NCBI RefSeq assembly: GCF_024704725.1
Contig: NZ_JALIQS010000002.1
Span: forward strand, 1-64,000
Length of the DNA: 64,000 nucleotides
Reading direction: 5' to 3'
From: Shinella sp. CPCC 101442
Lineage (GTDB): Bacteria; Pseudomonadota; Alphaproteobacteria; Rhizobiales; Rhizobiaceae
In this document: piece by piece, positions 13,648 to 55,790 of the stretch
Layout of the letters: the number at the start of each line of letters is the position of its first letter
Position numbering within the stretch: position 1 is the stretch's first letter
The notes under the pieces: model-generated
Database searches by the model: none
What the model was told of the DNA's origin: nothing
The model's input: only the letters and a program-made list of their open reading frames with translations
Translations under genes and position numbers: made by a program

Positions 13648-13881
13648 ATGTGGTATGAAGAGGATGGCGTCTATATTTGCCGCGGCAGCCTTGCTGGTCG
13701 CGAGAGTCTCAGTGGCCAAAGACGAGAAATGACGATCAACCGCGGGAACTGGCTGCGCCACATCGACGATATTGCGACAAACCGCGTGGATTCCGACAAG
13801 CGGGAAGATTTGCGACGTTGCCTCATGGCGGGAGCTGTCGTTGACAGCGATCTAGACGCCGCTACTGCTCGCCATCGCTAA
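13648..13881 (+). CDS. possible small moron gene(s) on the opposite strand (uncertain)
   Basis: The gap between the tail chaperone and tape measure genes (13597-13877) has no credible minus-strand gene. On the plus strand, the frame at 13648 encodes 77 residues ending in an acidic, helical part (MTINRGNWLRHIDDIATNR) that could start on its own at 13729. An overlapping frame starting MKRMASIFAAAALLVARV at 13654 is signal-peptide-like, has AGGGAA upstream, and ends in ATGA with that inner start. A small two-gene moron is possible. Codon evidence is weak and both frames may be chance. Confidence 0.3.
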   Translation: MWYEEDGVYICRGSLAGRESLSGQRREMTINRGNWLRHIDDIATNRVDSDKREDLRRCLMAGAVVDSDLDAATARHR

Positions 13882-14482
13882 CCATACTTCGCCAACAACG
13901 TAGCCATTTCGCCCTTAGTGGGCGCCTTCGGCTTTTCTTCCGCCCCGTTCGCCTCGTTTCGACCGTGGATAGCCTGAAAGAACTCAGTGAGCGTGGCGTC
14001 CCAGAAATCCTGATGACGCCACTGCAGGCCGCCAAGTCCTAGACGCATCCAATCGCGCCACGGAAACGGGTCTTCTTTGCGCTTTATGCCGCCTGGACGA
14101 CGGCTTCCACGTTTCCCTCGTCACCATCATCGAAATGATGGGCCAGAGCCGCTGAAAACGCCGCTGCGCACGCTGGGAAGTGCTTCAATCTCAAACGGTC
14201 GATAGCCGCGAGACGATCGCCGGCCACTGTCATAAGCTCGATGCCGGCCAGCGTTGCGGCCGCCTCGACGCCGGACAGGCGCACGAACAGATCCTGGAAG
14301 CTTTTGCACTCCAGCCGCGTCGATACCGCGGACAGCCCACCCATTGTGGCGGCAATGACCAGCGGAACGTCGCCGATCCATAGGGGGATCTCCCCGCGTG
14401 CGCCATTGGCGGCAAGCGGGAAGGGTTTTTCTGCCTTGGGTGTTGCAGTTTCAGCCACGGGCTTTTTCTCCTCTTTAGCCAT
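13878..14482 (-). CDS. tail assembly chaperone, predicted -1 frameshift fusion (201 aa)
   Basis: Ribosomes reading the 132-residue chaperone gene meet GGGAAAC at 14117-14111, in the 0-frame phase G GGA AAC. Slipping back one base after codon 124 continues into a frame open to the TAG at 13878-13880. That adds 77 residues (RGSRRPGGIKRKEDPFPWRDW, then LGLGGLQWRHQDFW). The added part looks like the tail chaperone of gene-transfer-agent-type tails. It has no plausible start codon of its own before its conserved region, supporting fusion. This is the lambda G/GT arrangement. Confidence 0.8.
14084..14482 (-). CDS. tail assembly chaperone G-like / GTA-gp10-like protein (132 aa)
   Basis: The unshifted product of 132 residues has a Lys/Pro-rich N-terminal tail (about 1-30) and then a compact domain (GEIPLWIGDVPLVIAATMGG) of the type seen in gene-transfer-agent gp10 proteins. 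It follows the tail tube gene by 3 bases. In lambda-like phages this protein coats the tape measure together with the frameshifted longer form during tail assembly. The stop at 14084-14086 is used when no slippage occurs. Confidence 0.8.
   Translation of the reverse strand: MAKEEKKPVAETATPKAEKPFPLAANGARGEIPLWIGDVPLVIAATMGGLSAVSTRLECKSFQDLFVRLSGVEAAATLAGIELMTVAGDRLAAIDRLRLKHFPACAAAFSAALAHHFDDGDEGNVEAVVQAA
14111..14117 (-). promoter_or_regulatory. programmed -1 ribosomal frameshift slippery site GGGAAAC
   Basis: On the minus strand the heptamer is G GGA AAC in the reading frame of the chaperone gene, a perfect X XXY YYZ slippery sequence, close to lambda's GGGAAAG. The zero frame ends 24 bases later, and the -1 frame stays open for 77 codons. 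I did not identify a certain downstream stimulatory structure. Confidence 0.85.
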
Positions 14483-14485
14483 CGG

Positions 14486-14917
14486 TTATGCCTCCGCCGT
14501 GAAGGAGAGCTCGCCAGCTGCCTCAAAGGTGCCGTTGAACTGCAGGTCGTCTTCCATGCCGCCATCGAACGTGAAATTCGTAGCGAAATACGGGCCCTCG
14601 AACGTACCGAGACCGGGAACGACCACCTGCGCGTTGAACACGGTCGTATTGATGACCTTGCCCATGAACGCCTTCATAGCGGCGCTGGACACGAACGTAC
14701 CGGAACCGGAGAAGGTGCGGCTTGAAATGCCGGGACGGCCAGTTTTTTGCACCGGGCCGCCGGGGTTGGTGCAACTAGGCTTCGTGGTGTCGACCGTGTT
14801 GGCCGAAAGGTCGAAGCTACGATCCTTCAGGCCGCAGAGATTGGTAAATACTTCCGGCGTCGCTCCGTCGCCGAGTTTGATGAGCAAAAGCCTACCGAGC
14901 TGTTCGCCGTCTGCCAT
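14486..14917 (-). CDS. major tail tube protein (143 aa)
   Basis: This 143-residue protein has the alternating beta pattern and Gly/Thr-rich composition of phage/GTA tail tube subunits. The end DDLQFNGTFEAAGELSFTAEA is typical of the family, where the last strands complete the tube barrel. The length matches GTA-type major tail proteins. It lies directly before the chaperone pair, the standard place in siphovirus late operons. Confidence 0.85.
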   Translation of the reverse strand: MADGEQLGRLLLIKLGDGATPEVFTNLCGLKDRSFDLSANTVDTTKPSCTNPGGPVQKTGRPGISSRTFSGSGTFVSSAAMKAFMGKVINTTVFNAQVVVPGLGTFEGPYFATNFTFDGGMEDDLQFNGTFEAAGELSFTAEA

Positions 14918-23664: not shown

Positions 23665-23741
23665 TGGTCAGTGTGGCAGGGCTCGAACCTGCGACCCCGT
23701 GAGCCCAAGTCACGTGCGCTACCAGGCTGCGCTACACACTG
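23665..23741 (-). tRNA. tRNA-Pro(UGG), phage-encoded
   Basis: The 77-nt cloverleaf has acceptor CAGTGTG/CACACTG, a D stem GCGC/GCGC, and an anticodon stem CGTGA/TCACG with loop CTTGGGC (anticodon TGG). The T arm is GCAGG-TTCGAGC-CCTGC, with encoded CCA. It is 4 bases after tRNA-Thr and in the same direction. Both lie inside the prophage, between the GrlR-like moron and the packaging genes. Confidence 0.93.
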
Positions 23742-23745
23742 GTGA

Positions 23746-23821
23746 TGGAGCCGACAGCCGGACTTTTACCAGCCACATCCTGCCTACAAGGCAGGCGCTC
23801 TACCTGATGAGCTATGTCGGC
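23746..23821 (-). tRNA. tRNA-Thr(UGU) with atypical T-loop, phage-encoded
   Basis: The 76-nt cloverleaf has acceptor GCCGACA/TGTCGGC, D stem GCTC/GAGC, anticodon stem CCTGC/GCAGG with loop CTTGTAG (anticodon TGT), T stem GCTGG/CCGGC with one G-T pair, and encoded CCA. The T-loop reads TAAAAGT rather than TTCRANY: T54 and A58 are kept, but positions 55 and 56 are A, so the usual contacts with the D-loop GG are lost. It may be a working but unusual phage tRNA or a decaying one. Confidence 0.85.
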
Positions 23822-55705: not shown

Positions 55706-55790
55706 GCGGGCGTGGCGAAACTGGTAGACGCAAGAGACTTAAAATCTCTCGGCCTTGGCTGTGCGGGTTCGATCCCCGCCGCCCGCACCA
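55706..55790 (+). tRNA. tRNA-Leu(UAA)
   Basis: The 85-nt tRNA has acceptor GCGGGCG/CGCCCGC, anticodon arm AGAGA-CTTAAAA-TCTCT (anticodon TAA), a long class II variable arm, T-arm GCGGG-TTCGATC-CCCGC, and encoded CCA. It stands alone on the plus strand between the RTX gene and wrbA. It shows no sign of a phage att repeat here. Confidence 0.95.

Follow-up and report, generated by a model that had tools for sequence, protein, structure and literature searches.

The locus

The stretch of DNA that was analysed, hereafter the window, comprises 64,000 nucleotides (nt) of Shinella sp. CPCC 101442 (contig NZ_JALIQS010000002.1, positions 1 to 64,000) and carries a siphophage-type prophage, whose tail operon on the minus strand consists of tail terminator, tail tube, a gene of 132 codons, an extension in the −1 frame and tape measure (Table 1). 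At the overlap of the 132-codon gene, which defines the 0-frame, with its extension lies the heptamer G_GGA_AAC. This heptamer is very probably a site of programmed −1 ribosomal frameshifting, of the kind known from lambda G/GT, and joins two tail chaperone halves.

The open part of the −1 frame extends from 14120 to 13878 on the minus strand and no further. Because a TGA directly 5' of the heptamer closes it upstream, the shift must take place after this TGA, from 14120 on, and before translation ends at the 0-frame stop (14084), an interval in which GGGAAAC is the sole heptamer of the form X_XXY_YYZ. The predicted fusion has 124 + 77 = 201 amino acids with the junction at Asn124-Arg125 (...DEGN-RGSR...). 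No ATG, GTG or TTG is found in the −1 frame of the window before the conserved Phage_TAC_6 domain; the first of these codons is an ATG within the conserved W-M-R motif, 69 nt past the heptamer start and 38 nt past the first base of the 0-frame stop codon. A first-pass annotation of this DNA had noticed G GGA AAC in the 0-frame of the upstream gene, with the strand unstated, and a −1 frame open for 77 codons with no start before its conserved part, and both were confirmed here; it had also proposed a 201-residue product with AsnArg near residue 124, with which the predicted translation agrees.

Of 4697 codon positions examined in 14 window genes, 13 (0.28%) hold an in-phase heptamer of any letters, and the only GGGAAAC among them is the site in the chaperone gene. 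Counted in any phase, GGGAAAC occurs at 12 places in the window as compared to 7.9 expected. By our own arithmetic from the 0.28% rate, the chance of one heptamer in the approximately 11 in-phase positions of the overlap is about 3%, and therefore the case for frameshifting rests on conservation and not on rarity.

Table 1. Features of the tail chaperone junction and its neighbouring genes in the window.
Feature	Position	Strand	Remarks
Tail tube protein (GTA gp9-like, Phage_tail_2)	14917..14486	minus	Pfam/PHROG match
0-frame gene, tail chaperone 1 (GTA gp10-like)	14482..14084	minus	132 aa; TAA stop 14086..14084
TGA in −1 frame directly 5' of heptamer	14123..14121	minus	bounds region for −1 shift
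Slippery heptamer G_GGA_AAC (putative)	14117..14111	minus	X_XXY_YYZ phase, context ...GAG GGA AAC GTG...
−1 frame extension	14111..13878	minus	77 codons and TAG stop 13880..13878; first codon CGT (Arg125)
6-bp stem with 5-nt loop	14104..14088	minus	GCCGUC-GUCCA-GGCGGC; 6 nt 3' of heptamer
Phage_TAC_6 (PF09550) domain, −1 frame	14066..13950	minus	Pfam match
Tape measure protein, 993 aa	13596..10615	minus	phrog_19914, E 6.5e-113

Conservation of the heptamer and the −1 frame

Relatives were collected by a protein scan of viral contigs, which gave 24 contigs (some nearly identical), and by a search of 151 genomes, in which 7 matches were distributed over 6 genomes, that of the window among them. 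An alignment of homologous prophages had been suggested earlier as a check on the site, and it bore the prediction out, as every one of the 24 viral contigs has GGGAAAC and the −1 offset, and so do 5 of the 7 genome matches, counting that of the window. The other two genome matches, which are the most distant, have AAAAAAG and GGGAAAT in place of GGGAAAC. For a codon alignment we used 26 close-family sequences with the window among them, excluding the distant L031 and L032, which have other heptamers. In this alignment 26 degenerate columns are invariant in their residue, and the codon varies in 24 of them, being invariant only at the GGA and AAC of the heptamer; elsewhere GGA is used for just 11 of 166 other glycine codons. 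The heptamer thus appears to be conserved beyond coding need. In 23 of the 25 unique junctions of the family (all but L012 and L033) the −1 frame opens 0-3 nt 5' of the heptamer, and in the extension, compared across 25 sequences, position 3 of the −1 frame varies in 67 of 71 gap-free codons and positions 1 and 2 in 51 and 47, which marks the −1 frame as the one under selection because its third codon positions vary most.

A family-profile search of 297 genomes of the same bacterial family reached further, giving 29 places in 24 genomes, from which 27 loci were read (L265-L291, some repeating earlier places). The offset was −1 in 25 of these 27 and +1 in the remaining two, and 23 of the 25 carried an in-phase heptamer in the overlap. 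Within one group the site starts exactly 22 nt before the stop, while its letters read GGGAAAC, GGGAAAG, GGGAAAT, AAAAAAG or AAAAAAA; no other comparative evidence for frameshifting at this locus is as strong as such a change of letters with slipperiness apparently kept.

The predicted stem downstream of the heptamer pairs in 87% of cells among 18 distinct junctions, as compared to 26-60% in slid versions. Mean z-scores of the 3' fold at GGGAAA sites were −1.47 in the window family and −1.40 elsewhere, versus −0.29 for AAACCC, −0.18 for CCCTTT and +0.17 for restart junctions. The scan against Rfam gave nothing at the site and one match, far below the gathering score, on the opposite strand. 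The heptamer and the letters that follow it can also pair with the stretch that encodes the start of the TAC_6 domain (14117-14060, minus strand).

The two halves of the chaperone

The second half matches Phage_TAC_6 with an E value of 3.1e-7 and 31.2 bits, above the curated cut-off of 23.4. The 132-residue protein matches phrog_13724 (E 2.2e-27), and a profile of its family aligned with the gp10 alignment of the gene transfer agents (GTAs), all 14 members of which match PF11836 (Phage_TAC_11 / GTA gp10), at an hhalign probability of 95.8% and E 7.5e-9 over 55 columns. The first half is therefore probably a distant relative of GTA gp10, and the earlier proposal that a GTA-gp10-like protein is joined to a GTA-type chaperone is supported by this alignment together with the Phage_TAC_6 match. 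Scanning the predicted fusion against PHROG returned no family covering both halves. A sequence search of the Protein Data Bank with the family profile gave two matches, the better one at E 0.029. The predicted model of the 132-residue protein is confident for approximately residues 21-118 and poor from residue 122 on, and the slip at residue 124 would therefore fall in a probably flexible tail.

The prophage was also searched for the mark of clusters like RcGTA, the Rhodobacter capsulatus GTA, which is a g12-like gene with DUF2460, and no match at E≤0.01 was found in the four genes after its tape measure gene. Next to where the structural genes end lie genes for tRNA-Pro and tRNA-Thr, and one for tRNA-Leu follows further on (23665-23821, minus strand; 55706-55790, plus strand); these tRNA genes are possible attachment sites.

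The sequence that separates the TAC_6 stop from the tape measure gene is variable. In the window an open reading frame on the reverse strand relative to the operon (13648-13881, plus strand) overlaps the TAC_6 stop by 4 nt, and an open reading frame of this kind, of 77-165 codons, is present in 10 of the 24 family loci that have both ends (the window, L005, L009, L010, L013, L014, L015, L017, L019 and L026). Its contents differ between loci, as in a cargo spot, and one set of these reading frames resembles YbjQ. The gap measures just 18-89 nt in L020, L021, L022, L025 and L033. Reverse coding sequences are annotated there in the phage records L034, L164 and L165, and our own script found none in L034. 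A match of the window's reverse-strand reading frame to that of phage RHph_Y3_1 was weak (E 0.005) and is not claimed.

Heptamers and restart codons in a wider survey

The junctions between gp10 and TAC_6 were surveyed in uneven samples, consisting of best-scoring and hand-picked loci. From a draw across the class, PF09550 matched 54 of 385 genomes, and the 30 best loci and 15 further places were read. The window's own order gave matches in 186 of 297 genomes (30 best-scoring loci and 40 picked across families read), the order of genome G480 in 127 of 148 genomes (the 30 loci with the best scores read, plus one taken over from the class draw), and from the titled genomes the best 80 of 572 were taken, confirmed with the gp9 profile. 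The 264 loci contained 13 duplicates and 6 failures (no TAC_6, or no gp10 at the right distance), leaving 245 unique junctions, with TAC_6 in the −1 frame in 220, in the +1 frame in 18 and in the same frame after the stop in 7. With a restart codon defined as ATG or GTG at −12 to +15 of the 0-frame stop, the 220 −1 junctions divide into 101 with a heptamer only, 84 with a restart codon only (mostly ATGA or GTGA), 14 with both and 21 with neither. The −1 offset alone proves little, because an ATGA or GTGA overlap itself forces a −1 offset, and it is on the heptamer that the argument rests. The first-pass annotation had named homologues with a broken heptamer and a retained offset as evidence against frameshifting; none was seen in the close family, whereas the restart-only and neither classes are such cases among the distant relatives.

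Outside the window family, 90 of 195 −1 junctions have an in-phase heptamer, whereas the two remaining phases have 15 and 16. For the most part a heptamer and a restart codon appear to be mutually exclusive there, with a heptamer in 72 of the 93 junctions without ATG or GTG within 30 nt of the stop and in 18 of the 102 with one (Fisher p ~1e-17, kinship uncorrected). In the first 135 junctions, the window family included, 83 real heptamers compare with a mean of 18 (maximum 30) in codon-order shuffles and a mean of 22 (maximum 36, 300 runs) after synonymous recoding, and AAACCCT occurs 18 times where 0.4 is expected. Heptamers of the CCCTTT class coincide with the codons for a Pro-Phe motif in the second protein, and this motif is written CCC TTT in 17 of 21 junctions in which the gp10 frame is open there versus 15 of 65 in which it is closed (p 3e-6). 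Judging from the counts in the other phases, some 15 of the 90 in-phase heptamers may be due to chance, most likely those of classes such as GGGCCC or GGGGGG. In seven of the 21 neither-junctions (L090, L115, L185, L186, L191, L253 and L262) TGA is immediately preceded by C_CCT and a TTG overlaps; these could use a TTG restart or slip on a tetramer at the stop.

A g12-like gene follows the chaperone pair in 191 of the 220 junctions outside the window family, at a median distance of 652-809 nt depending on the class, so by that one mark most surveyed loci are RcGTA-like clusters. These 191 comprise 63 junctions with a heptamer only, 76 with a restart codon only, 13 with both, 19 with neither and 20 in other frames. 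In the window's own order (n=72) the heptamer stands alone in 33 and the restart codon in 17, with 13 neither, 1 both and 8 in other frames; in the order of G480 (n=31), where the nearest named relative was always of the Rhodobacterales, 26 junctions are restart only, 4 are +1 and 1 has GGGGGGG together with a restart codon. Among named loci, the Hyphomicrobiales (n=43) have 19 heptamer only, 11 restart only, 6 both, 4 neither and 3 other, the Caulobacterales (n=18) 13 restart only, 2 both (CCCGGGC and GGGGGGA), 1 neither and 2 other, and the Rhodobacterales (n=5) 2 restart only and 3 other. Judged by these junctions, heptamers seem to be common in Hyphomicrobiales and rare in the sampled Rhodobacterales and Caulobacterales. 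On a gp10 tree of 148 rows, which is poorly resolved and has long branches flagged, the heptamer-only and restart-only labels switch 15 times by parsimony, and three of these switches are forced by well-supported branches. The genome of the window itself has a second, RcGTA-like cluster with its own chaperone pair (L001/L065, G000:C2:513224-513744), an AAACCCT junction and DUF2460.

Discussion

Taken as a further member of a classic recoding mechanism, the Shinella site is very well supported by the comparisons of sequences described above. From the signal, its conservation and the conserved −1 frame we infer how the slipping, its rate, the stem and the two products would work together. Most ribosomes would read the 0-frame to the TAA at 14084 and release the 132-residue chaperone, while a minority would slip back by one base with both tRNAs on G_GGA_AAC (GGA-AAC to GGG-AAA), where the stem that begins 6 nt further on may slow them. 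The slipped ribosomes would then read to 13878 and make the 201-residue protein with the C-terminal Phage_TAC_6 domain. By analogy with lambda, the short form may coat the tape measure protein and the C-terminal domain of the long form may recruit the tail tube protein.

The TAC_6 protein could instead be made separately, either by reinitiation past the 0-frame stop or from a start codon of its own. This is the likely mode in many relatives, as the 84 restart-only junctions among the 220 indicate, and phage record MN988490 annotates a separate TAC_6 coding sequence. For the window we consider it improbable, since the −1 frame there offers no start codon before the domain and the first ATG falls inside the W-M-R motif, and it would leave the codon invariance of the heptamer unexplained. 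A sequencing error or a decayed gene, with halves that were once one frame, could draw on Rhodobacter phage RcapNL, in which both halves lie in one frame of 190 amino acids; the offset and the heptamer recur, however, in numerous independent contigs and genomes, and the −1 frame is under selection, which makes this explanation exceedingly unlikely. Pfam identifies TAC_11 in the RcapNL protein, and Pfam TAC_6 gave no score there at E≤0.1, while our own gp10 and TAC_6 profiles score 18.8 and 21.1 bits consecutively in that frame, which fits the fused form being a functional protein. Transcriptional slippage instead of ribosomal frameshifting would suit L272, L278 and L282, which have runs of at least 7 A at the site, but the longest homopolymer at the window site is three, and we give this possibility hardly any credence. 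A run of seven A also lies between the two halves in RcapNL (L164:3250-3275), a possible slip site that would give a short form.

Several observations nevertheless weigh against programmed frameshifting as set out here. The 132-residue protein has no Pfam match at E≤1 and stays below the cut-off of PF11836. The TAC_6 domain has an ATG at its start in L018, L019, L022 and L034 and a TTG in L024, and L014 has a TTG 15 nt before the domain, so that a separate TAC_6 start is possible in these six loci. Among the more distant relatives, the second frame of L285 and L286 is still in −1 although they have neither a heptamer nor an ATG or GTG near the stop, and L277 and L283 are the two with a +1 offset. 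The stem is shifted or absent in the L011/L013 group, L030 and L033, none of its pairs is changed on both sides among the 18 distinct junctions, and 127 of 500 column shuffles reach its covariation score. Covariation was therefore dropped as proof of the stem, which is retained as supporting only.

Several known systems come close to this one. The lambda heptamer is GGGAAAG. Lambda G/GT is of the same mechanism type, with its second reading frame likewise in the −1 frame between the tail tube and tape measure genes, whereas the window has GGGAAAC, the TAC_11-like and TAC_6 families and a stem that is found 6 nt downstream in most relatives. According to part of PMC5009743, the two chaperone products of lambda are needed in a ratio of about 30:1, and the fusion connects the tape measure with the tube. 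In an HK97-like tail chaperone cluster of the GeneTack study, which we liken to the present pair by description and not by sequence, two tested genes are reported to frameshift at 6% and 7% (excerpt of PMC3711429). The tail chaperone of the Vandenendeviridae, another phage group with a different slippery motif, is described with a GTTTTT slip and, as in the window, an open −1 frame, there in all alleles reported (PMC12846349, in part). GGGAAAC is listed among the more frequent heptamers of insertion sequence elements, with low efficiency in E. coli, in a section of PMC4066793, which would fit a low ratio of the long to the short form; the same paper places CCCUUUC in a high-efficiency class in E. 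coli, with CCN codons less prone on average. Most of the phages described in PMC8601537 are reported there to show the usual tail chaperone frameshift signal. Two phage records annotate the halves as separate genes.

GTAs are particles that bacteria keep as their own. In RcGTA, g10 and g10.1 (g10.5 in PMC11409702) are named tail chaperones 1 and 2 in parts of PMC11409702 and PMC9765227, and they share related domains and gene order with the pair in the window. The junctions of the Rhodobacterales type differ from the window in that 26 of 31 have a restart codon without a heptamer; the R. capsulatus GTA junction itself is not among them. The RcGTA structure paper (PMC7296036) does not mention frameshift, g10, gp10 or chaperone. 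Neither frameshifting at the g10/g10.1 junction of GTAs nor an alternation of slip and restart was found in the literature searched, and as most subscription journals lay outside the search this is not proof of absence.

The first-pass annotation had asked how widely GTA-like tails use such slippage. Many of them seem to slip, and others seem to restart without a heptamer. We consider it rather likely that many RcGTA-like GTAs of the Hyphomicrobiales fuse gp10 and gp10.1 by a −1 slip (on AAACCCT, CCCTTTC or GGGAAAG), whereas Rhodobacterales and Caulobacterales make two proteins through a stop-start overlap, and that the modes have switched several times, so that the fusion would be dispensable. 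The same gene pair thus seems to alternate between the two modes with the −1 offset kept. The Rhodobacter agent, which is the best studied, may therefore not represent other GTAs, and if the alternation is true, the need for a fused chaperone becomes testable.
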